Assembly: GCF_001029285.1 (NCBI RefSeq)
Contig: NZ_LDZY01000009.1
Span: 1 to 64,000 of the forward strand
Direction: 5' to 3'
Length of the DNA stretch: 64,000 bases
Origin: Desulfosporosinus acididurans
GTDB taxonomy: Bacteria > Bacillota > Desulfitobacteriia > Desulfitobacteriales > Desulfitobacteriaceae
The notes below the pieces were generated by a model. It ran no database searches. It had not been told where the DNA came from and saw nothing but the letters and a program-made list of their open reading frames with translations. This document shows, one piece after another, positions 44,016 through 61,689 of this stretch (position 1 is its first letter; every line of letters begins with the position of its first letter). The position numbers and the translations under genes are program-made.

Positions 44016-44061
44016 CTCGGCGTTCGTCGAGATTTTACTGGCATATAAGGGAGGTAAAAGG

Positions 44062-45309
44062 ATGGCTTATAAGAGTATTCTGGTGGTTGGAGGGGGAATC
44101 AGCGGACTTACCGCCGCTGTAGAAGCTTCCGAAGCAGGAAGTGAGGTCTATCTGGTCGAAGAGAAATCTTATCTCGGTGGCCGAGTAGCCCAGATGAACC
44201 AGTATTTTCCTAAGTTATGCCCTCCGAACTGCGGATTAGAGATTAACTTCCGCAGAATAAAACAGAATCCGAGGATCAAGTTTTTCACATTGTCAGAGAT
44301 CGAATCCATTGAAGGAGAAGAAGGAGATTTCACCGTTACGGTAACCGCGAAACCGCGTTATGTAAATCAGAACTGCACGGCATGCGGGAAATGCACGGAG
44401 GTATGTCCGGCAGAGAGGTCCAACGAGTTCAACTATGGCATGGATAAAACGAAAGCAATTTATAGAGCCCATGCTTTTGCGTTTCCAATGAAGTACGTTC
44501 TTGACCGGGAAGCATGCCTGGGAGCAGAATGTGGGAAGTGTGTCAGCGTTTGTGAGTACGGTGCTATTGAACTGGATATGGAACCGAAAAGTTTCAAACT
44601 CAATGTAGGTTCCATCGTTTGGGCAACAGGCTGGGAGCCGTATGATGCCACGAAGATCTCCTATTACGGCTATGGCCGACATCAAAATGTGCTAACGAAC
44701 GTTATGCTGGAGCGCATGGCTGCACATAACGGACCAACCGGCGGAAAAATTGTCCGGCCATCTGACGGCAAAGAAGTAAAGACGATCGCCTTCGTACAAT
44801 GCGCGGGATCACGGGATGAAAATCATCTGGCGTATTGTTCCGGCATTTGCTGCATGGCCTCATTAAAACAAGCAACATACGTCTTAAAACAAGCTCCGGA
44901 TGCTAAGGTATCGATGTTTTACATTGATGTACGGGCGATGGGGAAATATGAAGACTTTTATAACAACGTTAAAGATAAGATCAACCTCATTAAAGGCAAA
45001 GTTGGGGAGATCTCGGAAGATGCCGAGACAAAAGATCTGATCGTCCAAGTGGAGAATCAAGAGACCGGAGAAATCATGAGAGAACGAGTGGACATGGTGG
45101 TCTTGGCCACAGGGATGGTGCCGTCCACAGCAGGATCAAAAGTACCGGCTGGTATAGTGTATGATGAGGATGGATTTATTGCTTCTGAAACAGGGAAACC
45201 GGGGATATACGGCGCAGGAAGCGTGAAGAAACCCTTGGATGTAGCCTCATCGGCAAAAGATGCTACAGCTGCAGCACTAAAAGCTCTACAATCTACGGTG
45301 AGGAGGTAG
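44062..45309 (+). CDS. qmoA: QmoA-like HdrA-family flavoprotein, copy 1
   Basis: FAD protein of 415 residues related to HdrA. The N-terminal FAD motif VVGGGISGLTAAVEASEAG and YLGGRVAQMNQYFPKLCPP are typical, followed by a 4Fe-4S-like group CTACGKCTEVCPAE and CLGAECGKCVSVCEYG. It forms the core of the complex that carries electrons to APS reductase. ATG at 44062 follows GGGAGG by about 7 bases; in-frame sequence upstream differs between the two copies, which supports this start. Confidence 0.92.
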   Translation: MAYKSILVVGGGISGLTAAVEASEAGSEVYLVEEKSYLGGRVAQMNQYFPKLCPPNCGLEINFRRIKQNPRIKFFTLSEIESIEGEEGDFTVTVTAKPRYVNQNCTACGKCTEVCPAERSNEFNYGMDKTKAIYRAHAFAFPMKYVLDREACLGAECGKCVSVCEYGAIELDMEPKSFKLNVGSIVWATGWEPYDATKISYYGYGRHQNVLTNVMLERMAAHNGPTGGKIVRPSDGKEVKTIAFVQCAGSRDENHLAYCSGICCMASLKQATYVLKQAPDAKVSMFYIDVRAMGKYEDFYNNVKDKINLIKGKVGEISEDAETKDLIVQVENQETGEIMRERVDMVVLATGMVPSTAGSKVPAGIVYDEDGFIASETGKPGIYGAGSVKKPLDVASSAKDATAAALKALQSTVRR

Positions 45310-45313
45310 CTCA

Positions 45314-47530
45314 ATGGATAAAAAGACAGGGGTATATATCTGCAGCGGCTGTGGAATTGGAGACGCCTTAGACATAGCAGCTTTGTCCAAGGTTGCCACC
45401 AAAGAAAGTAAAGTACCCGTATGTAAGACCCACGCATTTTTGTGCGGAGCAGAAGGCGTGGCGCAAATTAAAAGTGACATCGAAAACGAAGGGGTAAACA
45501 CGGTGGTCATCGCCGGATGTTCCTCACGCGTAAATTATGATGTCTTTGACTTTGGACCTTCAGTTATCTTGGAACGTGCCAATATACGGGAGCAAGTCAT
45601 TTGGTGTCATCCGGCAGAGGATGAAGACACGCAAATGATGGCAGAAGACAACCTGCGGATGAGTCTGGCCAAAGCAGGACATATTGAAATTCCCGAAGGA
45701 TACCATGGTGAAAACATGGTTAAGACCATTCTCGTCGTAGGCGGCGGACTGACAGGGATCACGGCAGCAATTGAAGGAGCAAAAGCCGGGTACAAGACGG
45801 TTCTCGTGGAGAAGAGTCCGGTGCTGGGCGGCTGGATGAACAATCTGTTCAAACAAGCCCCCTTAAAAGCTCCCTACAGCGATCCGGAAGAGGTAGACAT
45901 CGCAGTTCGGATCCAAGAAGTAGAAGCCAATCCGGATGTCACAGTCTATACAAGTGCAGAAATTAAAGAGATCGCCGGGGCGCCTGGAATGTTTGATGTC
46001 AAGATCGAACAGAATGGCCAGGAAATTAATGAACGAATCGGGTCAGTTGTGCTGGCCACCGGTGCCGTACCCTATGACGCATCGAAATTAGAGCACTTGG
46101 GCTATGGCAAATATGCTAACGTCATAACCAGTCAAGCCTTCGAAGAACTGGCGAAGAACGGAAAGATCGTACGCCCGGGAGACGGCAAAGAAGTACAAAG
46201 CATCGCCTTCCTGCAATGTGCAGGGTCACGGGATGCTGAGCACCTGCCGTATTGCTCGTCTGTATGTTGTGTAGAATCCTTGAAACAAGCAACCTACCTG
46301 AAAGAGCAAAACCCAGAAGCCGCGATCTACGTTTTCCATAAAGATATCCGAACTCCCGGACAATATGAAAAGCTGTACAAACGGGTTCAGAAAGATGGAG
46401 CCGTTTTCGTACGAGGCGATGTGACGGGGATCACAGAAGACGACGATAAGAACCTGCTCATCGAAGCAGCCGACGTTCTCACCGGCGCAACCATTGGAAC
46501 AGAAGGTGTAGACTTAGTTGTCTTAGCCACAGGGATGGTACCGACGACAGCGTTCGGAGAAAGCTTAGACGCGAAGAGCGAAAACGAAGAAAAAGAAGAG
46601 AAACCACAAGGTGACACGATTATACGGTCGAACCTCTTAAACCTGGCGTATCGCCAAGGACCAGAGATGCCGACATTAAAATATGGATTTTCGGATTCCC
46701 ACTTTGTATGTTTCCCATATGAAACACGACGAACAGGGATTTATGCAGCAGGAAGTGTAAGAGCACCGATGGATGCGCTGTCAAGCATCGAAGATGCGAC
46801 AGGAGCAGCCATGAAAGCCATCCAATGCATAGAATTGAGCGAACTCGGTTCTGCAGTGCATCCCAGAGTGGGGGATCTGTCCTTCCCGAGTTTTGCGATG
46901 CAGCGTTGTACGCAATGTAAACGTTGTACCGTGGAATGTCCGTTCGGAGCGATCAACGAAGATGATAAATTCAATCCGCTGCCGAATCCAACCCGTTGCC
47001 GACGGTGCGGAATCTGTATGGGAGCCTGCCCGGAACGGATCATATCCTTCAAAAACTACTCCGTGCCGATGATCGGCAACATGATCAAAGCCATCGAAGT
47101 TCCGGAAGAGGATGAAGAAAAACCAAGAATTGTGGTATTTGCCTGTGAAAATGATGCCATACCGTGCTTAGACATGGCGGGAATCAATCGCCTAAGTTAC
47201 AACGCTTGGGTACGGGTGATACCGGTAAGATGCTTAGGTTCCATGAGCCTGGTGTGGATCGCGGATACGTTATCCAAAGGAATTGATGGCATACTTCTCC
47301 TCGGATGTAAGCATGGTGATGATTACCAATGCCACTTCATCAAAGGAAGTGAATTGGCAGAAACCCGACTCTCCAAAGTGGCAGAAACGTTAGACCGATT
47401 GTCCTTAGAGTCGGAACGCGTACGGATGGAACAAGTATCCATTATGGATTACGATCAAATACCAGGAATTTTGGACGGCTTTGCCGAGAGACTAGAAGAA
47501 CTGGGTCCTAACCCCTATAAAGGGTTCTAA
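45314..47530 (+). CDS. qmoB: QmoB-like HdrA/MvhD fusion, copy 1
   Basis: Protein of 738 residues. The N-terminal part has cysteines (YICSGCGIGDALD, GCSSRVNYDVF), then an FAD domain (VVGGGLTGITAAIEGAKAG), two 4Fe-4S clusters (CTQCKRCTVECPFG, CRRCGICMGACPE) and a C-terminal MvhD-like domain (VFACENDAIPCLD, VRCLGSM, GCKHGDDYQC). This is the QmoB layout. The start is 4 bases after the qmoA stop with AGGAGG before it. Confidence 0.92.
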   Translation: MDKKTGVYICSGCGIGDALDIAALSKVATKESKVPVCKTHAFLCGAEGVAQIKSDIENEGVNTVVIAGCSSRVNYDVFDFGPSVILERANIREQVIWCHPAEDEDTQMMAEDNLRMSLAKAGHIEIPEGYHGENMVKTILVVGGGLTGITAAIEGAKAGYKTVLVEKSPVLGGWMNNLFKQAPLKAPYSDPEEVDIAVRIQEVEANPDVTVYTSAEIKEIAGAPGMFDVKIEQNGQEINERIGSVVLATGAVPYDASKLEHLGYGKYANVITSQAFEELAKNGKIVRPGDGKEVQSIAFLQCAGSRDAEHLPYCSSVCCVESLKQATYLKEQNPEAAIYVFHKDIRTPGQYEKLYKRVQKDGAVFVRGDVTGITEDDDKNLLIEAADVLTGATIGTEGVDLVVLATGMVPTTAFGESLDAKSENEEKEEKPQGDTIIRSNLLNLAYRQGPEMPTLKYGFSDSHFVCFPYETRRTGIYAAGSVRAPMDALSSIEDATGAAMKAIQCIELSELGSAVHPRVGDLSFPSFAMQRCTQCKRCTVECPFGAINEDDKFNPLPNPTRCRRCGICMGACPERIISFKNYSVPMIGNMIKAIEVPEEDEEKPRIVVFACENDAIPCLDMAGINRLSYNAWVRVIPVRCLGSMSLVWIADTLSKGIDGILLLGCKHGDDYQCHFIKGSELAETRLSKVAETLDRLSLESERVRMEQVSIMDYDQIPGILDGFAERLEELGPNPYKGF

Positions 47531-47557
47531 GTCCTTGAATAGCAAAGGAGCATTAGT

Positions 47558-48727
47558 ATGGAAGAAATAAAAAGTGTATCTCTGGAGATGAAAGATTATA
47601 TTGTTTCTTCAGGGGCGGAGACGCTCAGCTGGTGTATGCAATGCGGACTCTGCACCAACCTTTGTCCTTGGCGGTTAGTCCCCGGAGAAGTAAGCGAAGC
47701 ATTTAACATTCGGAAAATGCAGCGCTTGGGACAATTGGGATTAGAAGGATTTGAAGACGAAGAAATATTGTTTGCCTGCGCAACCTGCGGGATGTGCCAA
47801 TCTAATTGCCCGCGAAAAGTTGAGATCATCAACAATGTACGGTCAATGCGAAACACGACAGTAGGTGCAGGATTTTTGCCGGCGCACCTGCGGCCGATTG
47901 CCGGAAGCATTCATGCTAACGGAAATCCATGGTCAGGAGAGAAAGAAAAGCGTGCGGAATGGCAAGAAGGATTGGATATACCGGCCTTTAGTGAGGATAC
48001 AGAATACTTGCTGTATGTTTGCTGCACGTCCTGCTACGATACCCGAAGCAAAAAGATTGCCAAAAGCATCGTAAGCTTGTTAAAAGAAGCAGGGGTAAGC
48101 TTTGGAGTATTGACGGCGGAAGAAAACTGTTGTGGAGAGACAATCCGCAAACTGGGCGATGAGGAATTGTTCCAAAAGTTAGCGGAGTCCAATATAAAGT
48201 TGTTTAACAGTAAAGGGGTCAAAAAGATCATAACGACATCGCCGCACTGCCTATATGCCTTTAAGAAGGATTATCCAGACTACGGCGGCGAGTATGAAGT
48301 CGTGCATTATTCAGAAGTGCTAAGTAAGCTGATGAAAGAAGGAAAATTAACCTTCAAGGGAGAAGTAGGGAAGAAAGTAACATTCCATGATCCCTGTTAC
48401 TTAGGACGACATAATGAAGTGTACGATGCTCCACGTGAACTAATCCAAGCGATCCCAGGAGTAGAATTCGTGGAACTGGAGAGAAACAAGAGCAAAAGCC
48501 TCTGCTGTGCAGGCGGAGGAGGAAGAGTCTGGGCAGAAGTGCCAATGGGCCAGCGCTTTGGAGAACTGAGAATAACCGATGCGGTGGAAAAACAGGCTGA
48601 TGTCTTGGTAACAGCGTGTCCCTATTGCATCCTGATGCTTGACGATGCCTGCGCAGGACTGGAAAAGAATGATGTCTTGGAAGTTATGGAAATGTCCGAA
48701 CTCCTTTGTTCAGCTAGCAAGCCTTAA
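47558..48727 (+). CDS. Soluble HdrC-HdrB-like protein in the qmo cluster, copy 1
   Basis: Iron-sulfur protein of 389 residues with no membrane segment. Two 4Fe-4S motifs (CMQCGLCTNLCPW, CATCGMCQSNCPR) make an HdrC-like part; two CCG domains follow (VCCTSC ... ENCCGE ... SPHC; HDPCYLGR ... SLCCAGGGG ... TACPYC), the HdrB-like part. True QmoC has an HdrC part plus a cytochrome b membrane part, which is missing here. Gram-positive sulfate reducers are known to replace QmoC with Hdr-type proteins. How the complex reaches menaquinone is therefore open. Confidence 0.88.
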   Translation: MEEIKSVSLEMKDYIVSSGAETLSWCMQCGLCTNLCPWRLVPGEVSEAFNIRKMQRLGQLGLEGFEDEEILFACATCGMCQSNCPRKVEIINNVRSMRNTTVGAGFLPAHLRPIAGSIHANGNPWSGEKEKRAEWQEGLDIPAFSEDTEYLLYVCCTSCYDTRSKKIAKSIVSLLKEAGVSFGVLTAEENCCGETIRKLGDEELFQKLAESNIKLFNSKGVKKIITTSPHCLYAFKKDYPDYGGEYEVVHYSEVLSKLMKEGKLTFKGEVGKKVTFHDPCYLGRHNEVYDAPRELIQAIPGVEFVELERNKSKSLCCAGGGGRVWAEVPMGQRFGELRITDAVEKQADVLVTACPYCILMLDDACAGLEKNDVLEVMEMSELLCSASKP

Positions 48728-48831
48728 TATCTCGTAGGTGATGCCATTTCCCCATATAGGGGAGGTGTCCAATATATACAATTATACCCAATAAGCCGTT
48801 GACAAAATAGGAAAAGTTAGGAGGAGAAAGC

Positions 48832-49605
48832 ATGAACATCATCGTTTGCATCAAACAAACATTTGATACCGAGGCTAAAATTGTTCTTGATGGTAATGGC
48901 AAAATCGATCCCAACGGGGTCAACCTAATTATTAATCCTTACGATGAGTACGCTATTGAAGAGGGAATTCGTCTGAAGGAGAAATTTGGTGGCGATGTTA
49001 CGATCGTTACTATGGGAGGTCCGCGTGCTCAAGAGGCTGTTCGTACAGCTTTGGCAATGGGGGCTGATAAAGGTGTCGTCGTGAATGATCCTATTTTAGA
49101 GGGTACGGATGAATGGGCTAATGCAGAAATTCTTGCTAAAGCAGTAGCACAACTCCCTTATGATATCATCTTATCCGGCCGTATTGCCATTGATGACGGA
49201 GCAAGTCAAATTAGCGTACGTTTAGCAGAAGCCTTAAATATTCCTTCGGTAACCAGCGTTCTTAAGCTTGAAGTTGCTGGAACTCAAGTTACTGCAACCC
49301 GTGAAATTGACGGCGGAACAGAAACCATTGAAGTTGCATTACCTGCTGTATTCACAGCCCAAAAAGGCCTCAATGAACCCCGTTATCCATCCGTAGCTGG
49401 AATCATGAAGGCTAAAAAGAAACCTTTAAAATCAATGGCTGTTGCTGACCTCGGGTTAGCTGCCGGCGACTTAGCATCTAAAATGAGTGTTCAGAAATAC
49501 ACCTTGCCTACTGCTCGCCAAGCAGGACAAAAGATCCCTGGAGATGCACCTCAAGCCGCCAAAGAATTAGCACGACTATTGCATGAAGAAGCTAAAGTTC
49601 TGTAG
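48832..49605 (+). CDS. etfB: Electron transfer flavoprotein beta subunit
   Basis: EtfB/FixA-type subunit of 257 residues (MNIIVCIKQTFDTEAKI, NPYDEYAIEEGIRLKEKFGG, ISGRIAIDDGASQ-like AMP-binding region, AVFTAQKGLNEPRYPS). It binds AMP or FAD together with EtfA and takes electrons from acyl-CoA or similar dehydrogenases. AGGAGGAG lies 8 bases before the start. It begins an etfB-etfA-membrane oxidoreductase operon between the two qmo copies. Confidence 0.93.
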   Translation: MNIIVCIKQTFDTEAKIVLDGNGKIDPNGVNLIINPYDEYAIEEGIRLKEKFGGDVTIVTMGGPRAQEAVRTALAMGADKGVVVNDPILEGTDEWANAEILAKAVAQLPYDIILSGRIAIDDGASQISVRLAEALNIPSVTSVLKLEVAGTQVTATREIDGGTETIEVALPAVFTAQKGLNEPRYPSVAGIMKAKKKPLKSMAVADLGLAAGDLASKMSVQKYTLPTARQAGQKIPGDAPQAAKELARLLHEEAKVL

Positions 49606-49619
49606 AAGGAGGAATAAAC

Positions 49620-50609
49620 ATGGCAAAAGGAATATGGGTTGTTGTTGAACAACGCGAACAACAAATTCGTAAAGTTTCATTAGAACTTCTTGGACAAGGA
49701 CGGAAAATGGCCGATGAGACTGGCGAACCCTTAGTCGCTGTTGTACTTGGTCAAGGAATAGAAGGACTTGCACAAACTCTTGCTGCTAATGGAGCAGACA
49801 AAGTTATCGTTGTTGAAAATGAGAAATTGGCAGAGTATACAACAGGTGCCTATACTTCGGCATTGAACCAATTGATTCGTAAAGAGGAACCACAAGCTGT
49901 CCTTATGGGTAATACAGCTGTTGGAAAGGACCTCGCTCCTCGTTTAGCTCAACGTTTAGGTGTTGGTCTTGCTTCTGACTGCACGGGTATTGAACTCGAT
50001 GCCAGCAGCTTCATGACCTTCAAACGTCCTATTTATGCTGGTAAAGCCTTTGAATATCTTGCTTCCAGCGTTCGTCCTATCCTGGCTACAATTCGTCCCA
50101 ATACGTTTAACTTGCCTGCCGCTGATGATTCCCGCAAGGCAGACGTTGTTAAAGAAAGTGCGGAAATTGATGCAGCGGATTTACGCGCAATCCTTAAAGA
50201 AGTTGCTATTGCCGCTTCTAAACGTCCTGAATTAACTGAAGCTAACATCATTGTTTCTGGTGGACGCGGCATGAAAGGCCCTGAAAACTATGTTATCTTA
50301 GAAAACCTGGCTGATGTTATTGGCGCAGCAGTTGGTGCATCACGCGCCGCTGTTGATGCAGGTTGGAGAGAGCAAAAGTTCCAAGTTGGACAAACAGGTA
50401 AAACTGTTGCTCCTACCCTCTATATCGCCTGTGGGATTTCTGGAGCTATCCAGCACCTTGCAGGAATGGGTTCTTCTAAATTTATTGTTGCAATCAATAA
50501 AGATCCTGAAGCTAATATTTTCAACGTTGCAGACTATGGAATTGTTGGCGATCTCTTCGAAGTAGTTCCAGTTCTGACCGAAGAATTTAAAAAGATTGTT
50601 AGTGCTTAA
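49620..50609 (+). CDS. etfA: Electron transfer flavoprotein alpha subunit
   Basis: EtfA/FixB-type subunit of 329 residues. The C-terminal FAD domain shows [45 protein letters not shown] and [20 protein letters not shown]. It pairs with EtfB, whose gene ends 14 bases upstream. No extra ferredoxin domain is present, so it is not of the large bifurcating CarE kind. Confidence 0.94.
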
Positions 50610-50677
50610 CAACATGTTATTGCTTTAATGATTGTTCTAGGATTTAATGTTGATATTTGATAATTGAATAAATATAA

Positions 50678-50713
50678 TTTAGCGGAGCGCCTCCATAAAG
50701 GTGCTTCGCTAAA
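50678..50713 (+). other. 15-bp hairpin between etfA and the membrane oxidoreductase gene
   Basis: TTTAGCGGAGCGCCT pairs with AGGTGCTTCGCTAAA, with two G-T pairs, around a 6-base loop. No T-run follows. It sits 20 bases before the next start codon and may adjust expression or mRNA stability within the operon. Confidence 0.5.
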
Positions 50714-50732
50714 TGAATAAGGAGAGATGAGA

Positions 50733-52772
50733 ATGGCCACACGTCAAGTGTATTGGAACATTGAAGGAGAGCATTGGCTTTATTTATTCTTCATCATTGC
50801 ACTGATTTTCTTCGGTTACGGAGTGTACAAACGTTTGTCACTTTGGAAATCGGGAAAACCTGAGAATCGCTGGAAAGACGTATGGCAAGGCATAAAAGAT
50901 ATTCTTGTATATGGATTCGGTCATAAACGAATCCTTAAAGATTCTTATCCGGGTATTATGCACTTTTGCATTTTTTGGGGATTTGTATTTTTAGCGTTTG
51001 CTACTGCTATGATTACACTTCAAGCAGACTTTGGCTTACATATCTTCCATGGATGGCTATATTTGTTCATTAAATTGACAGCTAATCTTTTTGGTTTGTT
51101 AGCAATCCTGGGAATCATAACAGCAGCCTTTCGCCGGTATATACAAAGACCGGATCGCCTAGATAATAAAACTGATGATGCAATTACTCTAGCTTTAATA
51201 TTTGCAATTCTTTTAACGGGCTTTGTAATTGAAGGAGTCCGTATCGCTGCAACACCTGATCCTTGGGCCGGATGGGGATTTATAGGACAGTGGATATCTA
51301 TTCCTCTTAAAGCATCTCTCAACGAAGCACAATTACTCTCGCTGCACAGATTCCTGTGGTGGTTTCATCTTCTTTTAGCCATGACATTTATCGGGTATTT
51401 TCCATATTCAAAATTGTTTCATGTAATACTTGGTCCTTTGAATATGTTTTTCCGTCATCGGGGACCAATAGGCATTCCTGAACTTATCGATTTTGAAGAT
51501 GAAAATCTTGAAACATTTGGAAAAAGTCAACTGCGTGAGTTTAGCTGGAAAGCTCTGTTTAATACTGATGCTTGCTTGCGTTGCGGACGTTGTCAGGATA
51601 ATTGTCCTGCTTATTTAAGCGGGAAACATTTGAGTCCCAAAAGGATAATTCAAGATATGCGCATTCTAATGGAAGAAACAGGTGAAGCTCTTAAGGCGTC
51701 TCAAAAATTGGCTCTGTCAAAGCAAAGTGCCGATTTGGAAAGTGCTGCAGCTGAAGAGCCTGTCGAACTTCCTGTACCAGCTCTCATTGGTGAAGTTATT
51801 CCTGAAGAAGACTTGTGGTCCTGTACAACGTGTCGTTCTTGTGAACAACAATGCCCTGTTTTCGTTGAACATGTTGACAAAACTATAGACATGCGGCGAA
51901 ATTTAGTTCTTATGGAAACTCGATTCCCGGCTGAAGCACAGTTAGCCTTCAGAAATATGGAGAACAATGGTAACCCATGGGGGATTGGCTGGACGACTCG
52001 TGCTGATTTCATCAAGGGATTAGGAGTGAAGACCTTCGAAGAAGATCCTAGTGCTGAATATTTATATTGGCCCGGATGTTCAGGAGCATTTGATGCACGT
52101 AATCAAAAAGTTTCTGCAGCACTCGTGAAGTTACTCCAAGCTGCTGGTGTTCATTTCGCAATTTTAGGCAACGATGAAAAGTGTTGTGGTGACTCAGCTC
52201 GTAAACTTGGAAATGAATATTTGTTTTATTCTTTAGCTTCGGAAAACATTGAGGTTATGAAGGGCTATGGAATCAAGAAAATTATAACTCAATGCCCGCA
52301 TTGCTTTAATATTCTAAAGAATGAGTATCCACAATTAGGCGGAGACTACGAAGTCATTCATCATTCGGTCTTTTTACTGGAGCTTGCTAAAGCCGGAAAA
52401 CTTAAATTTAAAAATATTGCTGGGAAATCTATTACCTATCATGATTCTTGCTATTTGGGACGTTACAATCAGATCTATAACCAACCGCGAGAGTTGCTCA
52501 AAATGGTGGGTCTGGAAATCAAGGAAATGTCTCATACCGGTGAAAAGAGTTTTTGCTGCGGTGCTGGCGGCGGACGTATGTGGCTTGAGGAACACGAAGG
52601 AGAACGCATTAATGTCATGCGTACCGATGAAGCAATCGCTGTTAAAACTGATTATGTAGGTACTGCTTGCCCATTCTGTTTAACCATGATTGTTGATGGA
52701 ATTGCTATGCGTGAAGTCGGAGAAGAATTAACAGCTTTAGATATTTCAGAAATTTTAGAAATGGTCATTTAA
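50733..52772 (+). CDS. Membrane Etf:menaquinone oxidoreductase-like protein (NarI/HdrC/HdrB fusion)
   Basis: Protein of about 679 residues. Residues 15-245 hold five or six membrane helices like NarI cytochrome b; then two 4Fe-4S motifs (CLRCGRCQDNCPAY, CTTCRSCEQQCPVF) and two CCG domains (WPGCSGAF ... EKCCGD ... CPHC; HDSCYLGR ... SFCCGAGGG ... TACPFC). This is the layout of the Etf-linked menaquinone reductase often found next to etfBA. Its C-terminal half is closely similar to the soluble HdrCB-like protein of the qmo block. ATG at 50733 follows AAGGAGAG by 7 bases; an ATG at 50727 lies too close. Confidence 0.88.
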   Translation: MATRQVYWNIEGEHWLYLFFIIALIFFGYGVYKRLSLWKSGKPENRWKDVWQGIKDILVYGFGHKRILKDSYPGIMHFCIFWGFVFLAFATAMITLQADFGLHIFHGWLYLFIKLTANLFGLLAILGIITAAFRRYIQRPDRLDNKTDDAITLALIFAILLTGFVIEGVRIAATPDPWAGWGFIGQWISIPLKASLNEAQLLSLHRFLWWFHLLLAMTFIGYFPYSKLFHVILGPLNMFFRHRGPIGIPELIDFEDENLETFGKSQLREFSWKALFNTDACLRCGRCQDNCPAYLSGKHLSPKRIIQDMRILMEETGEALKASQKLALSKQSADLESAAAEEPVELPVPALIGEVIPEEDLWSCTTCRSCEQQCPVFVEHVDKTIDMRRNLVLMETRFPAEAQLAFRNMENNGNPWGIGWTTRADFIKGLGVKTFEEDPSAEYLYWPGCSGAFDARNQKVSAALVKLLQAAGVHFAILGNDEKCCGDSARKLGNEYLFYSLASENIEVMKGYGIKKIITQCPHCFNILKNEYPQLGGDYEVIHHSVFLLELAKAGKLKFKNIAGKSITYHDSCYLGRYNQIYNQPRELLKMVGLEIKEMSHTGEKSFCCGAGGGRMWLEEHEGERINVMRTDEAIAVKTDYVGTACPFCLTMIVDGIAMREVGEELTALDISEILEMVI

Positions 52773-52860
52773 ATTTAGAATTCAGAACATTTATTTTAAT
52801 CTGTACAGATAAAATATTCACCAAATATAAATAATTAATGATTACGTCTTGTTCATAAAA

Positions 52861-53076
52861 TTGAATTCAAAAATTGAATTCAAAATCGATTCAATAAATG
52901 ATTAAATACTTTAATCTAAGTTTTCTCTTAAATTAACTGGAGTTAATGTGGATTCTAGGGAGGGATGTGATTGTAAATAACCTTAAAAAAAATTTCTAAT
53001 AAATAATTCCAATATTCAAAATAGTACTTTGCCACTCATATTTTTATCGTTAATTATTATGTTTTTTAAAAAACAT
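52861..53076. promoter_or_regulatory. Cluster of palindromes upstream of aprBA copy 1
   Basis: Within the 362-base gap (52773-53134) lie TTGAATTCAA twice (52861-52870, 52874-52883), ATTAACtggaGTTAAT (52932-52947) and an 18-bp perfect palindrome ATGTTTTTTAAAAAACAT (53059-53076) about 59 bases before aprB. A weak TTGCCA-N17-AATTAT promoter (53029-53057) abuts the last one. No such array precedes aprBA copy 2. The sites may bind regulators; AT-rich palindromes also occur by chance. Confidence 0.35.
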
Positions 53077-53134
53077 TAACCAATTTATCTTTAAACTAAA
53101 TCATATTTACGTATTATTAAGGGAGGTTTAACAA

Positions 53135-53578
53135 ATGCCAAGTTTTGTAATTGCAGAAAAGTGTGACGGATGCAAAGGGCAGGATAAAACAGCTTGTATG
53201 TATGCATGCCCAAATGACCTGATGTTTTTAGACAAGGAAAGAATGAAAGCTGTAAATCTAGATCCTAGTCAATGCTGGGAGTGCTTGTGCTGTGTTAAAG
53301 CTTGCCCGCAGCAAGCTATGGACCTTCGTGGTTATGCAGATTTCGTTCCCCTCGGCGCTTCTTGTGTACCTCTCCGTGGTTCGGACAGCATCATGTGGAC
53401 TGTTAAATTCCGCAATGGCATGACTAAACGCTTTAAATTCCCCATCCGTACAACTGAAGAAGGCTCCGCTGTTCCTGATGGTGGTTTCGTTGAAGAAAAC
53501 ACTGATATCAACAGTTTAAATCTGTTCAGTGAACCGTCATCCTTGAAATTACCAGCTGTTTGGACCTATAAAAAATAA
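53135..53578 (+). CDS. aprB: APS reductase beta subunit, copy 1
   Basis: Iron-sulfur subunit of adenylylsulfate reductase, 147 residues. Clusters: CDGCKGQDKTACMYACP and CWECLCCVKACPQQAMD; the tail wraps around the alpha subunit. It hands electrons to the FAD of AprA. The start follows GGGAGG by about 9 bases. Compared with copy 2 (63037) it differs at many silent sites and in the last 25 residues. Confidence 0.95.
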   Translation: MPSFVIAEKCDGCKGQDKTACMYACPNDLMFLDKERMKAVNLDPSQCWECLCCVKACPQQAMDLRGYADFVPLGASCVPLRGSDSIMWTVKFRNGMTKRFKFPIRTTEEGSAVPDGGFVEENTDINSLNLFSEPSSLKLPAVWTYKK

Positions 53579-53628
53579 CTATTGAATTTGAATACTGGCG
53601 ATAAGAATAAATAGGGAGGTTAAAATCA

Positions 53629-55521
53629 ATGCCAATGAACTTTGAAACGGTAGAAGTAACAACCGACCTTCTCATCATCGGAGGCGGAATGGGAGCCTGC
53701 GGTGCAGCTGTAGAAGCAGCTTACTGGGGCAAAAAACACGGACTTAAAGTAACCTTAGTTGATAAAGCATCAATGCCGCGTTCCGGTGCTGTCGGAATGG
53801 GATTGTCCGCAATCAACCTTTATGTTGGACTTGCTGAAGGCAGAAATACAGTCCAAGACTATGTTCGCTATGTTAAAGGCGATATGATGGGAATTGCCCG
53901 TGATGACTTGGTCGCTAACATCGCTCGTCACGTAGACAGCTCCGTGCATATGTTTGAAAAATGGGGCCTTCCTTTATGGAAAGATGAAGAAGGCAACTAT
54001 GTGCACGAAGGTAAATGGCAACTGATGATCAGCGGTGAATCTTATAAAGTAATCGTAGCTGAAGCTGCTAAGAATGCTTTAGGCGAAGAAAACATTTATG
54101 AGAGAGTCTTCATCACCGAGCCGCTGTTAAAAGACGGCAAATGCGTAGGAGCCGTAGGTTTCAGTGTACGTGAGAATAAATTCTATGTCTTCAAAGCAAA
54201 AGCTACCTTGTGTGCAATGGGTGGAACCGTTGGTGTCTTCAAACCGAAATCCACAGGTGAAGGTGCCGGACGTTCATGGTATCCTCCATTCTCCACTGGA
54301 TCATCTGCTTACTTCACCATGAAGGCTGGAGCAGAGATGAGCAGCCAAGAAGTACGTTTCGTACCGATTCGTTTCAAAGACGCTTATGGACCAGTAGGAG
54401 CATGGTTCTTACTCTTTAAATCCCGTGCAACCAATGCTATGGGCGAAAACTATATGGAAACCCGTGCCGATGAATTGAAGAAGTTCGGTGTCTACGGTTC
54501 CATTAAACCGATTCCTGCAAACCTGCGTAACCATCTCGGCTTATTAGACGTCCAAGAAGGTAAAGGACCTCTCTTCATGCGCACAGAAGAAGCTATTGCC
54601 AATCTGGCTAAAGCGTATGAAGGAGACGAAAAAGCCTTCAAGAAGAAAATGAAATCCTTAGAAAATGAAGCTTGGGAAGACTTCCTCGATATGACGATTG
54701 CCCAAGCCTTATTATGGGCTGCAACCAACGTACAACCGGAAGAAAGATCTTCTGAAATCGCGGCAGCAGAGCCTTACTTCATCAGTTCACACTCCGGTTC
54801 ATCAGGAGCATGGATCTCTGGTCCGGAAGACCTTTCCGCTGGAAGCGATTACTTCTGGGGTTATGCTAACATGACCACCGTACCTGGACTCTTTGCTGCA
54901 GGTGACGCTTCAGGAAACTGCCCGCACAAATTTTCTTCAGGAACACACGCTGAAGGACGTATTGCAGGGAAATCTGCCTGCAAATATATCTTAGAGAACA
55001 ATACGCTTCTCGAAGTAGAACCTTCAGTAGTCGAAGAAATGAAAGCTATCACCTACAAGCCACTGGAAATCTATGAGCAATACAGCGGCTTCAGCACCGA
55101 TCCACAAGTCAACCCGAACTATATTCTTCCGAAACAATTTATGTTCCGTTTACAAAAATTGATGGACGAGTATGTCGGAGGAGCCAACGTATACTTCTGC
55201 ATGAACAGTGCATCCTTAGAAAGAGCAGCGGAACTCTTCGAGTTCCTGAAAGAAGACTCGGAAAAACTGGCTGCTAAAGATATTTATGAATTGCTGAGAG
55301 TCTGGGAAAACAAACACAGAATGTGGCAAGCTGAATCCCACCTTAGAGCAGTAACCTTCCGTGATGAAACTCGTTGGCCTGGATATTATATCAGAACAGA
55401 CAAACCAGTAATTGACGAAGAGAACTGGCATTGTTTCGTTAATATGAAATGGGATCCACAAACCAAAGAATGGTCAGTCTTCAAACGTCCTGTCATCGAT
55501 ATGTTCGACGTTAAATTCTAA
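53629..55521 (+). CDS. aprA: APS reductase alpha subunit, copy 1
   Basis: FAD subunit of 630 residues that reduces APS to sulfite and AMP. The FAD site is LLIIGGGMGACGAAVEAAYW; further typical regions are SYKVIVAEAAK, GWFLL-type GAWFLLFKSRATNA and AAGDASGNCPHKFSSGTHAEGR. Length is as usual for Gram-positive sulfate reducers. GGGAGG lies before the start. A long gap with repeats follows; the expected qmo genes come only after a YlbF-family gene. Confidence 0.95.
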   Translation: MPMNFETVEVTTDLLIIGGGMGACGAAVEAAYWGKKHGLKVTLVDKASMPRSGAVGMGLSAINLYVGLAEGRNTVQDYVRYVKGDMMGIARDDLVANIARHVDSSVHMFEKWGLPLWKDEEGNYVHEGKWQLMISGESYKVIVAEAAKNALGEENIYERVFITEPLLKDGKCVGAVGFSVRENKFYVFKAKATLCAMGGTVGVFKPKSTGEGAGRSWYPPFSTGSSAYFTMKAGAEMSSQEVRFVPIRFKDAYGPVGAWFLLFKSRATNAMGENYMETRADELKKFGVYGSIKPIPANLRNHLGLLDVQEGKGPLFMRTEEAIANLAKAYEGDEKAFKKKMKSLENEAWEDFLDMTIAQALLWAATNVQPEERSSEIAAAEPYFISSHSGSSGAWISGPEDLSAGSDYFWGYANMTTVPGLFAAGDASGNCPHKFSSGTHAEGRIAGKSACKYILENNTLLEVEPSVVEEMKAITYKPLEIYEQYSGFSTDPQVNPNYILPKQFMFRLQKLMDEYVGGANVYFCMNSASLERAAELFEFLKEDSEKLAAKDIYELLRVWENKHRMWQAESHLRAVTFRDETRWPGYYIRTDKPVIDEENWHCFVNMKWDPQTKEWSVFKRPVIDMFDVKF

Positions 55522-55571
55522 GGAAAATTTAAAATTATTTTTTGAAGATTAGCCTGAGATTAAACATTGAA

Positions 55572-55687
55572 CTCGCTTACGCTAAAGCTGAACATCGAGA
55601 CTTCGGTGGGGGACTCCACCCCCACCGAAGCATAGTACGGGGGACCCACTCCCACTTATAGAAGTGGGAGTCTTACAATTGGATAAA
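55572..55687 (+). repeat. Near-complete copy B of the dispersed palindromic repeat
   Basis: From CTCGCTTACGCTAAAGCTGA through GACTTCGGTGGGGG / CCCCCACCGAAG to CTCCCACTTATAGAAGTGG and TCTTACAATTGGATAAA, this copy closely matches copy A at 25189-25311. It lies in the 554-base gap after aprA copy 1. Confidence 0.65.
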
Positions 55688-55705
55688 CAGAAGAAGTAAA
55701 CTGAA

Positions 55706-55809: not shown

Positions 55810-56075
55810 GATTTAAACTTAGAAAATGAGTTGTTTTACAGGGTAGTCAATAAGGATTCTTCGTATTACAATAGGATTAACTAGCAGATCGGGGGTGAGT
55901 ACAATTTTCTGGGAAGTCAGAAAACATGTACTCATCCCCAGATTAAATATCGTAAGTATGCTTAGTAACAAATTAAGGTATATTTACGATGTTTAGCTCA
56001 GGATTCATTCCTCTGCTATCATCACACTAATAGTCATTTCAAAGATCTTGAAACGAACGAAGGAGGACTTTAAAA

Positions 56076-56420
56076 ATGGATCAAAAATATGAAGAAATCA
56101 TCGAAAAATGTCTTAATCTTGGGAAGCTAATAGCAGATACCCCTGTATATCAAGAATTCAAAAAAGCGGAGTACAATCTAATGCATAATCCGGAGGCACG
56201 TAAACTTGTAGAAGATTTACAAACATTGAAAAAAGAGCATTATCTCAAAAAGATGGCTGGAACTGAGATTTCGAAAGAAGACGAAGAAAAAATGAAGGAA
56301 TTGGAAAACGTCTGCTTATCAAATAATCAAGTTTATGCTTCCAACAATGCCAATAATAATTTTCAAAAGCTAATGGAGACAATATCTGGTAAAATTAGAG
56401 AAGGAATTCAAAGTATTTAA
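56076..56420 (+). CDS. YlbF/YmcA-family protein
   Basis: Helical protein of 114 residues (YEEIIEKCLNLGKLIADTPVYQEFKKAE, NPEARKLVEDLQ) that matches the YlbF/YmcA family. In Bacillus such proteins form a complex with YaaT that works with RNase Y and carries Fe-S clusters. Two cysteines (Cys12 and the one in ENVCLSNN) are present. It stands alone between aprA copy 1 and qmo copy 2. AGGAGG lies before the start. Its role here is unknown. Confidence 0.75.
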   Translation: MDQKYEEIIEKCLNLGKLIADTPVYQEFKKAEYNLMHNPEARKLVEDLQTLKKEHYLKKMAGTEISKEDEEKMKELENVCLSNNQVYASNNANNNFQKLMETISGKIREGIQSI

Positions 56421-56514
56421 AAATAATTTTGACAATTGTTTTTGCTTTTGACTTTGTTAATACATTATTATTATGGCTAGATAGTCTTTTGTTTTGGAAT
56501 ATCTTTACTCCTTT

Positions 56515-56560
56515 CACTAAATCTTTACTTGTCCTTTTGAGCAAGCAGTAAGATTTAGTG
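56515..56560. other. Long hairpin after the YlbF-family gene
   Basis: CACTAAATCTTTACT pairs with AGTAAGATTTAGTG with one bulged T, and CTTG/CAAG may extend it inward. No T-run follows. The rest of the gap 56421-56912 is AT-rich and holds the promoter of qmo copy 2. Confidence 0.45.
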
Positions 56561-56751
56561 AGGGGATGTCTACCATAAAAGTATTTGTTGCGTTAATTAG
56601 TGCAAAATAGTTCAATATCCTAATCAATGGTTAGTGTTTTGGCTGCTTTTAAGGTGCTATTATGGACCAAAGTAGGGTTTGGATTACGCTATTTACAAAT
56701 GATTCAAAAGGATCAATAGTTTGGCTATATAAGATATTAATCGTATTCATA

Positions 56752-56780
56752 TTGACGTATTATGACTTCAGTGCTAATCT
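56752..56780 (+). promoter_or_regulatory. Promoter of qmo copy 2
   Basis: TTGACG (56752-56757), 17-base spacer, TAATCT (56775-56780), with the TTCAGTGCTAATCT segment shared with the copy 1 promoter. The leader would be only about 125 bases and lacks the hairpins of copy 1. Confidence 0.65.
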
Positions 56781-56912
56781 AATTTGTGAGAAAATTAATT
56801 AAGTCGAGTTATTTTAATATACTTAGTCGAAATTTTTTTTAATATAGTTTGTGTAATTTGTTACGATTTAAATAATAAAGTCTTGCTTTTAAGGAAGAAA
56901 AGAGGTAAAAGG

Positions 56913-58160
56913 ATGGCTTATAAGAGTATTCTGGTGGTTGGAGGGGGAATCAGCGGACTTACCGCCGCTGTAGAAGCTTCCGAAGCAGGAAGTGAGGTCT
57001 ATCTGGTCGAAGAGAAATCTTATCTCGGTGGCCGAGTAGCCCAGATGAACCAGTATTTTCCTAAGTTATGCCCTCCGAACTGCGGATTAGAGATTAACTT
57101 CCGCAGAATAAAACAGAATCCGAGGATCAAGTTTTTCACATTGTCAGAGATCGAATCCATTGAAGGAGAAGAAGGAGATTTCACCGTTACGGTAACCGCG
57201 AAACCGCGTTATGTAAATCAGAACTGCACGGCATGCGGGAAATGCACGGAGGTATGTCCGGCAGAGAGGTCCAACGAGTTCAACTATGGCATGGATAAAA
57301 CGAAAGCAATTTATAGAGCCCATGCTTTTGCGTTTCCAATGAAGTACGTTCTTGACCGGGAAGCATGCCTGGGAGCAGAATGTGGGAAGTGTGTCAGCGT
57401 TTGTGAGTACGGTGCTATTGAACTGGATATGGAACCGAAAAGTTTCAAACTCAATGTAGGTTCCATCGTTTGGGCAACAGGCTGGGAGCCGTATGATGCC
57501 ACGAAGATCTCCTATTACGGCTATGGCCGACATCAAAATGTGCTAACGAACGTTATGCTGGAGCGCATGGCTGCACATAACGGACCAACCGGCGGAAAAA
57601 TTGTCCGGCCATCTGACGGCAAAGAAGTAAAGACGATCGCCTTCGTACAATGCGCGGGATCACGGGATGAAAATCATCTGGCGTATTGTTCCGGCATTTG
57701 CTGCATGGCCTCATTAAAACAAGCAACATACGTCTTAAAACAAGCTCCGGATGCTAAGGTATCGATGTTTTACATTGATGTACGGGCGATGGGGAAATAT
57801 GAAGACTTTTATAACAACGTTAAAGATAAGATCAACCTCATTAAAGGCAAAGTTGGGGAGATCTCGGAAGATGCCGAGACAAAAGATCTGATCGTCCAAG
57901 TGGAGAATCAAGAGACCGGAGAAATCATGAGAGAACGAGTGGACATGGTGGTCTTGGCCACAGGGATGGTGCCGTCCACAGCAGGATCAAAAGTACCGGC
58001 TGGTATAGTGTATGATGAGGATGGATTTATTGCTTCTGAAACAGGGAAACCGGGGATATACGGCGCAGGAAGCGTGAAGAAACCCTTGGATGTAGCCTCA
58101 TCGGCAAAAGATGCTACAGCTGCAGCACTAAAAGCTCTACAATCTACGGTGAGGAGGTAG
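56913..58160 (+). CDS. qmoA: QmoA-like HdrA-family flavoprotein, copy 2
   Basis: Same 415-residue protein as at 44062; no amino-acid difference seen. The ribosome site GAGGT is shared, but the sequence before it (AAGGAAGAAAAG) is unique to this copy, so translation strength might differ. It is preceded by a short leader and followed 4 bases later by qmoB. Confidence 0.92.
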   Translation: MAYKSILVVGGGISGLTAAVEASEAGSEVYLVEEKSYLGGRVAQMNQYFPKLCPPNCGLEINFRRIKQNPRIKFFTLSEIESIEGEEGDFTVTVTAKPRYVNQNCTACGKCTEVCPAERSNEFNYGMDKTKAIYRAHAFAFPMKYVLDREACLGAECGKCVSVCEYGAIELDMEPKSFKLNVGSIVWATGWEPYDATKISYYGYGRHQNVLTNVMLERMAAHNGPTGGKIVRPSDGKEVKTIAFVQCAGSRDENHLAYCSGICCMASLKQATYVLKQAPDAKVSMFYIDVRAMGKYEDFYNNVKDKINLIKGKVGEISEDAETKDLIVQVENQETGEIMRERVDMVVLATGMVPSTAGSKVPAGIVYDEDGFIASETGKPGIYGAGSVKKPLDVASSAKDATAAALKALQSTVRR

Positions 58161-58164
58161 CTCA

Positions 58165-60381
58165 ATGGATAAAAAGACAGGGGTATATATCTGCAGCGGC
58201 TGTGGAATTGGAGACGCCTTAGACATAGCAGCTTTGTCCAAGGTTGCCACCAAAGAAAGTAAAGTACCCGTATGTAAGACCCACGCATTTTTGTGCGGAG
58301 CAGAAGGCGTGGCGCAAATTAAAAGTGACATCGAAAACGAAGGGGTAAACACGGTGGTCATCGCCGGATGTTCCTCACGCGTAAATTATGATGTCTTTGA
58401 CTTTGGACCTTCAGTTATCTTGGAACGTGCCAATATACGGGAGCAAGTCATTTGGTGTCATCCGGCAGAGGATGAAGACACGCAAATGATGGCAGAAGAC
58501 AACCTGCGGATGAGTCTGGCCAAAGCAGGACATATTGAAATTCCCGAAGGATACCATGGTGAAAACATGGTTAAGACCATTCTCGTCGTAGGCGGCGGAC
58601 TGACAGGGATCACGGCAGCAATTGAAGGAGCAAAAGCCGGGTACAAGACGGTTCTCGTGGAGAAGAGTCCGGTGCTGGGCGGCTGGATGAACAATCTGTT
58701 CAAACAAGCCCCCTTAAAAGCTCCCTACAGCGATCCGGAAGAGGTAGACATCGCAGTTCGGATCCAAGAAGTAGAAGCCAATCCGGATGTCACAGTCTAT
58801 ACAAGTGCAGAAATTAAAGAGATCGCCGGGGCGCCTGGAATGTTTGATGTCAAGATCGAACAGAATGGCCAGGAAATTAATGAACGAATCGGGTCAGTTG
58901 TGCTGGCCACCGGTGCCGTACCCTATGACGCATCGAAATTAGAGCACTTGGGCTATGGCAAATATGCTAACGTCATAACCAGTCAAGCCTTCGAAGAACT
59001 GGCGAAGAACGGAAAGATCGTACGCCCGGGAGACGGCAAAGAAGTACAAAGCATCGCCTTCCTGCAATGTGCAGGGTCACGGGATGCTGAGCACCTGCCG
59101 TATTGCTCGTCTGTATGTTGTGTAGAATCCTTGAAACAAGCAACCTACCTGAAAGAGCAAAACCCAGAAGCCGCGATCTACGTTTTCCATAAAGATATCC
59201 GAACTCCCGGACAATATGAAAAGCTGTACAAACGGGTTCAGAAAGATGGAGCCGTTTTCGTACGAGGCGATGTGACGGGGATCACAGAAGACGACGATAA
59301 GAACCTGCTCATCGAAGCAGCCGACGTTCTCACCGGCGCAACCATTGGAACAGAAGGTGTAGACTTAGTTGTCTTAGCCACAGGGATGGTACCGACGACA
59401 GCGTTCGGAGAAAGCTTAGACGCGAAGAGCGAAAACGAAGAAAAAGAAGAGAAACCACAAGGTGACACGATTATACGGTCGAACCTCTTAAACCTGGCGT
59501 ATCGCCAAGGACCAGAGATGCCGACATTAAAATATGGATTTTCGGATTCCCACTTTGTATGTTTCCCATATGAAACACGACGAACAGGGATTTATGCAGC
59601 AGGAAGTGTAAGAGCACCGATGGATGCGCTGTCAAGCATCGAAGATGCGACAGGAGCAGCCATGAAAGCCATCCAATGCATAGAATTGAGCGAACTCGGT
59701 TCTGCAGTGCATCCCAGAGTGGGGGATCTGTCCTTCCCGAGTTTTGCGATGCAGCGTTGTACGCAATGTAAACGTTGTACCGTGGAATGTCCGTTCGGAG
59801 CGATCAACGAAGATGATAAATTCAATCCGCTGCCGAATCCAACCCGTTGCCGACGGTGCGGAATCTGTATGGGAGCCTGCCCGGAACGGATCATATCCTT
59901 CAAAAACTACTCCGTGCCGATGATCGGCAACATGATCAAAGCCATCGAAGTTCCGGAAGAGGATGAAGAAAAACCAAGAATTGTGGTATTTGCCTGTGAA
60001 AATGATGCCATACCGTGCTTAGACATGGCGGGAATCAATCGCCTAAGTTACAACGCTTGGGTACGGGTGATACCGGTAAGATGCTTAGGTTCCATGAGCC
60101 TGGTGTGGATCGCGGATACGTTATCCAAAGGAATTGATGGCATACTTCTCCTCGGATGTAAGCATGGTGATGATTACCAATGCCACTTCATCAAAGGAAG
60201 TGAATTGGCAGAAACCCGACTCTCCAAAGTGGCAGAAACGTTAGACCGATTGTCCTTAGAGTCGGAACGCGTACGGATGGAACAAGTATCCATTATGGAT
60301 TACGATCAAATACCAGGAATTTTGGACGGCTTTGCCGAGAGACTAGAAGAACTGGGTCCTAACCCCTATAAAGGGTTCTAA
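58165..60381 (+). CDS. qmoB: QmoB-like HdrA/MvhD fusion, copy 2
   Basis: Same 738-residue protein as at 45314, without visible change. See that entry for domains. Here the cluster leads directly to sat and aprBA copy 2, which restores the usual neighbourhood of sulfate-activation genes. Confidence 0.92.
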   Translation: MDKKTGVYICSGCGIGDALDIAALSKVATKESKVPVCKTHAFLCGAEGVAQIKSDIENEGVNTVVIAGCSSRVNYDVFDFGPSVILERANIREQVIWCHPAEDEDTQMMAEDNLRMSLAKAGHIEIPEGYHGENMVKTILVVGGGLTGITAAIEGAKAGYKTVLVEKSPVLGGWMNNLFKQAPLKAPYSDPEEVDIAVRIQEVEANPDVTVYTSAEIKEIAGAPGMFDVKIEQNGQEINERIGSVVLATGAVPYDASKLEHLGYGKYANVITSQAFEELAKNGKIVRPGDGKEVQSIAFLQCAGSRDAEHLPYCSSVCCVESLKQATYLKEQNPEAAIYVFHKDIRTPGQYEKLYKRVQKDGAVFVRGDVTGITEDDDKNLLIEAADVLTGATIGTEGVDLVVLATGMVPTTAFGESLDAKSENEEKEEKPQGDTIIRSNLLNLAYRQGPEMPTLKYGFSDSHFVCFPYETRRTGIYAAGSVRAPMDALSSIEDATGAAMKAIQCIELSELGSAVHPRVGDLSFPSFAMQRCTQCKRCTVECPFGAINEDDKFNPLPNPTRCRRCGICMGACPERIISFKNYSVPMIGNMIKAIEVPEEDEEKPRIVVFACENDAIPCLDMAGINRLSYNAWVRVIPVRCLGSMSLVWIADTLSKGIDGILLLGCKHGDDYQCHFIKGSELAETRLSKVAETLDRLSLESERVRMEQVSIMDYDQIPGILDGFAERLEELGPNPYKGF

Positions 60382-60408
60382 GTCCTTGAATAGCAAAGGA
60401 GCATTAGT

Positions 60409-61578
60409 ATGGAAGAAATAAAAAGTGTATCTCTGGAGATGAAAGATTATATTGTTTCTTCAGGGGCGGAGACGCTCAGCTGGTGTATGCAATGCGGACT
60501 CTGCACCAACCTTTGTCCTTGGCGGTTAGTCCCCGGAGAAGTAAGCGAAGCATTTAACATTCGGAAAATGCAGCGCTTGGGACAATTGGGATTAGAAGGA
60601 TTTGAAGACGAAGAAATATTGTTTGCCTGCGCAACCTGCGGGATGTGCCAATCTAATTGCCCGCGAAAAGTTGAGATCATCAACAATGTACGGTCAATGC
60701 GAAACACGACAGTAGGTGCAGGATTTTTGCCGGCGCACCTGCGGCCGATTGCCGGAAGCATTCATGCTAACGGAAATCCATGGTCAGGAGAGAAAGAAAA
60801 GCGTGCGGAATGGCAAGAAGGATTGGATATACCGGCCTTTAGTGAGGATACAGAATACTTGCTGTATGTTTGCTGCACGTCCTGCTACGATACCCGAAGC
60901 AAAAAGATTGCCAAAAGCATCGTAAGCTTGTTAAAAGAAGCAGGGGTAAGCTTTGGAGTATTGACGGCGGAAGAAAACTGTTGTGGAGAGACAATCCGCA
61001 AACTGGGCGATGAGGAATTGTTCCAAAAGTTAGCGGAGTCCAATATAAAGTTGTTTAACAGTAAAGGGGTCAAAAAGATCATAACGACATCGCCGCACTG
61101 CCTATATGCCTTTAAGAAGGATTATCCAGACTACGGCGGCGAGTATGAAGTCGTGCATTATTCAGAAGTGCTAAGTAAGCTGATGAAAGAAGGAAAATTA
61201 ACCTTCAAGGGAGAAGTAGGGAAGAAAGTAACATTCCATGATCCCTGTTACTTAGGACGACATAATGAAGTGTACGATGCTCCACGTGAACTAATCCAAG
61301 CGATCCCAGGAGTAGAATTCGTGGAACTGGAGAGAAACAAGAGCAAAAGCCTCTGCTGTGCAGGCGGAGGAGGAAGAGTCTGGGCAGAAGTGCCAATGGG
61401 CCAGCGCTTTGGAGAACTGAGAATAACCGATGCGGTGGAAAAACAGGCTGATGTCTTGGTAACAGCGTGTCCCTATTGCATCCTGATGCTTGACGATGCC
61501 TGCGCAGGACTGGAAAAGAATGATGTCTTGGAAGTTATGGAAATGTCCGAACTCCTTTGTTCAGCTAGCAAGCCTTAA
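60409..61578 (+). CDS. Soluble HdrC-HdrB-like protein in the qmo cluster, copy 2
   Basis: Same 389-residue protein as at 47558. The repeat ends 15 bases after its stop codon. With sat about 200 bases downstream, qmo copy 2, sat and aprBA copy 2 may be read in one transcript. Confidence 0.88.
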   Translation: MEEIKSVSLEMKDYIVSSGAETLSWCMQCGLCTNLCPWRLVPGEVSEAFNIRKMQRLGQLGLEGFEDEEILFACATCGMCQSNCPRKVEIINNVRSMRNTTVGAGFLPAHLRPIAGSIHANGNPWSGEKEKRAEWQEGLDIPAFSEDTEYLLYVCCTSCYDTRSKKIAKSIVSLLKEAGVSFGVLTAEENCCGETIRKLGDEELFQKLAESNIKLFNSKGVKKIITTSPHCLYAFKKDYPDYGGEYEVVHYSEVLSKLMKEGKLTFKGEVGKKVTFHDPCYLGRHNEVYDAPRELIQAIPGVEFVELERNKSKSLCCAGGGGRVWAEVPMGQRFGELRITDAVEKQADVLVTACPYCILMLDDACAGLEKNDVLEVMEMSELLCSASKP

Positions 61579-61689
61579 TATCTCGTAGGTGATTAAGAGT
61601 TGATGAAAGTCTACCGGATAATGGGTTCAGCTTAGTGATATTGTCTAGACGATAATATTCGAGGGGGGGGATGCCGGTAATCCTTCGAA

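Follow-up and report, generated by a model that had tools for sequence, protein, structure and literature searches.

Recurrent concerted evolution of amoCAB, haoAB and cycAB in the Nitrosomonadales was reported by Wang and Chen (2018; PMC6053082). The accessible part of that paper lists 26 prokaryotic genes, including amo, hao, cyc, psbA, psbD, tuf and the etfAB genes of Burkholderiales; qmo, hdr and apr are absent from its two tables of these genes. The locus described here lies on a window of 64,000 nucleotides of Desulfosporosinus acididurans (contig NZ_LDZY01000009.1, positions 1 to 64,000). As far as the accessible text of PMC6053082 allows a comparison, it resembles the amo/hao/cyc case: core respiratory genes are near-identical within a genome, the duplication is old by synteny, and several genes of one pathway appear to convert together. 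It differs in that the genes serve sulfate respiration (qmoAB, an HdrD-like gene and aprBA), a single locus contains both repeats at a spacing of about 12.9 kb, and the intervening genes are divided between the two units. As for tufA/tufB in the same source, one protein would be encoded in two genomic contexts that are homogenised over long times, but each block comprises several whole genes instead of a single one. Partial conversion, with one segment staying diverged, is described in the available part of PMC4632066 for the methanogen pair mtrA-1/mtrA-2; in that pair the differing part is a membrane domain, in the present case a short C-terminal tail encoded at the 3' end of aprB. The duplication is mentioned neither in the accessible parts of PMC6372793, PMC11771766, PMC8982180, PMC5099947 and PMC6639609 nor in PMC4541271. 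A literature search, which left most subscription journals uncovered, returned no earlier report of it and no paper for qmoA with gene conversion or for Desulfosporosinus with concerted evolution. The qmo/apr case is new; concerted evolution of respiratory genes is already known as a kind.

Gene content and extent of the repeats

The repeats and genes of the locus are located as follows (copy 1 belongs to unit 1, copy 2 to unit 2):

44051-48742, + strand: repeat copy 1 with qmoA, qmoB and the HdrD-like gene, an exact 4692-base match to copy 2
56902-61593, + strand: repeat copy 2 with the same three genes, an exact 4692-base match to copy 1
44062-45309, + strand: qmoA copy 1, an open reading frame for an HdrA-like FAD/FeS protein; copy 2 at 56913-58160
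45314-47530, + strand: qmoB copy 1, an open reading frame for an HdrA/FlpD-like protein with an FlpD domain above the cut-off; copy 2 at 58165-60381
47558-48727, + strand: copy 1 of the gene for an HdrD-like FeS/CCG protein (alias hdrX) with Fer4 and two CCG stretches; copy 2 at 60409-61578
48832-52772, + strand: etfB-etfA-etfM, an Etf pair and a NarI/FeS/CCG membrane protein by Pfam; unit 1 only
53122-55525, + strand: aprBA copy 1, the second homogenised segment, 97.2 % identical to C9:63024-65412; TIGR02060 and TIGR02061 above cut-off
53515-53572, + strand: 3' tail of aprB, in which old paralogue divergence survives; it holds all 11 by-position columns of aprBA
56076-56420, + strand: YlbF/YmcA-like open reading frame between the units (PF06133)
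61755-62957, + strand: sat, ATP sulfurylase, unit 2 only and single in the genome
63024-64000, + strand: aprBA copy 2, continuing past the window to C9:65412

The gene order is hibD-[qmoA qmoB hdrD]-etfB etfA etfM-[aprB aprA]-YlbF-like ORF-[qmoA qmoB hdrD]-sat-[aprB aprA]-chrA, repeated segments being bracketed. Unit 1 thus reads qmoAB-hdrD-etfBAM-aprBA and unit 2 qmoAB-hdrD-sat-aprBA. Ten proteins, from QmoA through Sat and including that of the YlbF-like ORF, were scanned with profiles, while hibD, chrA, usp and pld are labels assigned by reading the sequences. The start of qmoA at 44062 is our choice among starts that include upstream TTG codons in the list of open reading frames. For QmoA the top NCBIfam match was HdrA2 with 394 bits, far under the cut-off of 1100, and the HdrA2 match of QmoB was likewise under its cut-off; models for QmoA or QmoB were not among the best 25 matches of each protein. 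The name qmoA rests on the gene context and on the Desulfosporosinus form of QmoAB with an Fe-S/HdrD protein, which is described in the accessible part of PMC4148979. HdrA-like QmoA and QmoB followed by the HdrD-like protein (the X in qmoABX, for hdrX), next to sat and apr, suggest a Qmo-type complex of this form. Among the matches listed for the D. acididurans genome (10 of 32 candidates scored), an etfBA of comparable size and similarity occurred in unit 1 only, and sat had one match there and one in the related genome G001. The spacer 5' of etfB (48743-48831) is hairpin-like and conserved on the etfBAM contigs of G001, G002, G004, G009, G016 and G026. A dispersed repeat of about 115 bases is found at 55568-55687 and 25194-25312, at several places in locus L111, at other loci of the genome and in many relatives.

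Base-by-base comparison of 44051-48742 with 56902-61593 gave 4692 of 4692 identical bases at an offset of 12851, a maximal exact match. The identity claimed in the first-pass annotation is therefore borne out, and the edges lie where it had placed them: the left edge in the ribosome site of qmoA, 11 bases before the ATG at 44062, and the right edge 15 bases past the third stop codon. Zero differences correspond to an upper bound of about 0.06 % by the rule of three. Directly outside the edges, 20 adjacent blocks of 30 bases (10 per side) match at only 2-13 of 30 bases. The whole genome (G000; 4,637,866 bases, 47 contigs) contains two copies of the block and no third.

The same annotation had set the aprBA pair against the block as diverged, which is mostly wrong. 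The two copies are 97.2 % identical over 2405 columns with 51 mismatches and 12 gap openings; identity is 99.0 % for aprA alone and 96.3 % in the 5' part of aprB. Divergence is strongest at the 3' end of aprB and in the aprB-aprA spacer.

Homogenisation within genomes

The genome G001 of the same genus (three contigs, one of 4,926,837 bases) also carries both copies, at a distance of 12.9 kb and in the gene order of G000. Its copies differ from each other by three substitutions and one gap over 4689 columns (99.9 % alike); between the two genomes the block is 87 % identical, a difference of about 12.5 %. Together with their unique flanks, copy 1 (43608-52798) is 86.7 % and copy 2 (56893-65408) 88.8 % identical between G000 and G001, and the repeat edges of both genomes nearly coincide. 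The comparison with related genomes, which the first-pass annotation had proposed, thus revealed both copies with the same unique flanks in G001. Of its two explanations, a very recent duplication or ongoing gene conversion, the second is supported and the first is rejected, the flanked two-copy locus being common to both genomes while the copies agree within each of them.

In the four-copy alignment of the qmo block, 584 gap-free columns group the copies by genome, none by position and none crosswise (600 : 0 : 0 with gap columns counted). The control was a dispersed pair that both genomes possess, etfM of the locus and a distant paralogue. It yielded the opposite pattern: 12 columns grouped by genome as against 150 by position, and 16 were crossed; homogenisation hence acts on the repeated locus and not on that other paralogue pair. 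In the tree of the block the G001 copies pair with 100/100, the G000 copies are identical and all four form a 100/100 clade. The aprBA genes follow the repeat with 161 gap-free columns by genome, 8 by position and 2 crossed. With gap columns the ratio is 170 : 11 : 2, and all 11 by-position columns fall within 53515-53572 at the end of aprB, a tail that is a remnant of the old divergence between the paralogues. Zero differences over 4692 bases in G000 and four in G001, compared with about 12.5 % between the species, indicate that both pairs were homogenised late, if the bases are trusted. Two marks of concerted evolution, likeness within the genome and an old duplication by synteny, were found, as was the contrast with a non-converting pair, which we added as a control of our own. 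They support gene conversion acting on a duplication older than the species split, each copy being closer to its partner in the genome than to its orthologue. With high probability, an ancestral locus for sulfate activation and APS reduction was duplicated before G000 and G001 separated, its shared segments were homogenised in each genome and both units were kept.

One alternative is an assembly artefact. A collapsed repeat may have been pasted twice into G000, and then the zero differences, or even the second copy, would be false. The genome report of D. acididurans M1 (PMC4541271; 47 contigs and 4.64 Mb, figures that fit this assembly) states 454 and Illumina 2x112 shotgun reads and assembly by Newbler/MIRA. 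Reads of these types would not span 4.7 kb, thus the exact identity in this draft is provisional, and the G001 copies do differ at four places. However, the same arrangement is present on the large contig of G001, the G000 copies are flanked by different unique genes and the aprBA copies of G000 were resolved with their 51 mismatches. We consider the artefact improbable as an explanation of the locus, while in its weak form the G000 copies may have a few hidden differences. The caution about an artefact in the first-pass annotation consequently keeps its force for the exact count of zero and loses most of it for the existence of two copies.

The sequence of G001 has its own ambiguities. One extra base in qmoB of copy 1 relative to copy 2 (L112 with L113, merged near 12832) causes a frameshift, and so does one extra base in the 5' part of aprA of unit 1. 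Both adjoin single-base runs, so residual sequencing error is possible; unit 1 of G001 may be decaying, or the frameshifts may be sequencing errors. Each of the three substitutions that separate the G001 copies alters an amino acid; error or relaxed selection would explain this as well as any other cause.

Independent, very recent duplications at the same place in each species would also produce the near-total identity within genomes. They are rejected as very improbable on account of synteny and the aprB tail: the unique flanks of both copies are conserved between G000 and G001, and the 11 columns of the tail retain position-specific differences common to both species. Moreover, the left edge nearly coincides with the contig ends of six draft genomes of the genus, and the edges are near those of G001. 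Strong purifying selection without conversion has a negligible probability: the proteins are conserved (amino-acid difference between G000 and G001 of 7.5 % for QmoA and 3.6 % for the HdrD-like protein), but fourfold sites differ by 44 % in qmoA and 31 % in hdrD between the species and nowhere within G000, in a codon comparison in which the qmoB values are invalid due to the frame-shifted G001 copy 1 and aprA copy 1 is not included, and a difference at silent sites between species but not within G000 cannot be caused by selection on the protein level.

Occurrence in the genus and family

Twenty-nine genomes of the genus were examined. Two had both copies, 15 had one unbroken copy (G003, G005, G006, G007, G008, G010, G011, G012, G014, G018, G020, G021, G022, G024 and G028), ten had contigs ending inside the block and two were uninformative (G013, G019). 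A single copy in a draft could hide a collapsed pair, but should not do so in the one-contig genomes G006, G010 and G028. Contigs ended exactly 141 bases past the position of 44051 in G009, G016, G025, G026 and G027 and exactly 127 bases past it in G017. Both numbers are k-mer sizes that assemblers commonly use as their largest. Such ends are as expected of collapsed repeats, and we infer a second copy in these six drafts. The other contig ends inside the block were at 96 (G002), 80 (G004), 529 (G015) and 185 bases (G023). Measured against recurrence in at least five species, the yardstick in the accessible part of PMC6053082, two genomes are resolved and six more would be added by contig ends at the repeat edge. 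In an rpoB tree the genomes with exact ends belong to three groups: G009 and G017 with G000 and G001 (100/100), G016, G025 and G026 with G004 (100/99), and G027 as the third.

The etfBAM contigs of G004, G009 and G026 extend from within hdrD to the start of aprB; for that of G016 only the hdrD end was found. In G027 the repeat edge was present and an etfBAM of comparable similarity was not found. The corresponding contig of G002 starts in qmoB and ends in aprB. In this genome the block is preceded by hibD in one context and by the YlbF-like ORF in another, and its right neighbour is sat in one and etfB in another, which speaks for two copies there. In G002, however, sat-aprBA stands before a qmoA, opposite to the arrangement in G000; hence a single event followed by a single pattern of loss does not account for the genus as a whole. 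The order hibD-qmoABX-etfBAM-sat-aprBA, distributed over two contigs in G024, is a candidate for the state before the duplication. Twelve of the 15 single-copy genomes show qmoABX-sat-aprBA without etfBAM in between and have etfBA matches elsewhere; the order in G011 was taken from locus L013, whose contig is equally long. Two qmo sets were not seen in the 28 of 80 loci that were read for gene order (L003-L030), several of which are short. In G021 (C12; L138 with L214, merged 15698-18103 and +4041) aprBA is duplicated as an exact repeat of 2406 bases and qmo is not.

Outside the genus, a QmoB match at E 1e-100 was obtained in two of 16 other genomes of the family, one each. Within the genus, QmoB was not found at this threshold in G009, G017 (both listed as 100 % complete), G025, G026, G013, G015 and G019. 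In G009, G017, G025 and G026 it is perhaps missing because collapsed repeats were dropped from the assembly. The listed completeness of these four genomes is 92-100 %.

Control regions and retention of both units

Three further elements lie 5' of the two qmoA copies:

43940-44061, + strand: putative structured RNA leader of qmoA copy 1, from a 25-sequence alignment; the model extends 11 bases into the repeat, over the ribosome site
43678-43706, + strand: promoter-like element of unit 1 with the sequence TTGACT-17-TAATCT, conserved across an alignment of 14 rows
56752-56780, + strand: promoter-like element of unit 2 with the sequence TTGACG-17-TAATCT, conserved across the same kind of alignment of 14 rows

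The leader stands directly 5' of copy 1, so that the repeat begins where the control region ends. Its alignment of 25 sequences of the genus contains three hairpin regions, with standard pairs in 95.8 % of the pair cells. Changes on both sides were observed for 15 of 25 pairs, and 0 of 500 shuffles reached the observed values; as the structure was read off the same sequences, it should exceed slid versions to some degree in any case, and relatedness can let sequences outperform shuffles even without structure. The model scores 106.6 bits for copy 1 versus 12.2 bits for copy 2, and by this search copy 2 has no such leader. The model detects the leader 5' of qmoA in 26 of the 29 genomes of the genus, 25 of these sequences having been used to build it. 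Before genes of any kind, and with E 0.01 or better, the leader is recovered from 39 of the 73 genomes of the order, namely 28 of the 29 in the genus and 11 of the remaining 44. Among 65 leader matches, 40 of them outside the model set and found by the model, 21 of 25 pairs had two-sided changes in an alignment that was fitted to the structure. The 43940-44061 type is a candidate cis-regulatory RNA without a match in Rfam 15; nothing in the window or in loci L111, L112 and L113 reached an Rfam gathering score. Sub-threshold matches to SAM-II (52951-53009, the sole Rfam match at E up to 5 over 43000-64000) and to ohsC (in L274 outside the element, the sole match in 11 other leader loci) were treated as chance. 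Leaders of this type also precede unrelated genes, named from translations as acyl-CoA dehydrogenase, leuC, ftsW, a nickel/cobalt transporter and others, and another copy is present in the D. acididurans genome at L270 (G000:C14:46236-46349). Inspected by eye, the leaders of copy 2 in G000, G001 and G002 resemble one another and that of G018 near the ribosome site.

A simple promoter scan listed 38 sites against 37.5 expected from shuffles and included neither promoter-like element; without an excess in the scan, the assignment as promoters rests on conservation only. In G021, the second aprBA copy is also preceded by the shared promoter-like element.

RecA-type gene conversion between the direct repeats is the probable agent of the homogenisation; it would stop at the ribosome site and shortly past the third gene because homology ends there. 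Reciprocal loss may have left unit 1 without sat and unit 2 without etfBAM. Both units would then be kept because a crossover between the qmo copies would delete etfBAM and one between the apr copies would remove the sole sat gene. The first-pass annotation had suggested that expansion or deletion by recombination could tune gene dose; judged by the gene order, a deletion of this kind would come at the price of either etfBAM or sat. Two transcription units would supply the same Qmo complex and APS reductase, with conversion keeping the subunits matched. The benefit may lie in a larger supply of the Qmo and Apr enzymes, expressed from two promoters whose 5' leaders differ; such a use has been proposed for other duplicated respiratory complexes. 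The frameshifts in copy 1 of G001 count against a simple benefit of dose. Tentatively, and with less than even confidence, we suggest a locked duplication: the losses of sat and etfBAM would make both units indispensable, conversion would keep Qmo and Apr identical, the boundary at the ribosome site would leave each unit its own control and the separate leaders would place one set of enzymes under two signals.

With this locus, sulfate reduction, a central energy pathway, would join the few cases in which respiratory genes of bacteria evolve in concert over long times. The repeats also suggest why qmo seems absent or broken in several draft genomes of Desulfosporosinus. The edge at the ribosome site and the division of sat and etfBAM between the units provide a testable model for the survival of large direct repeats.
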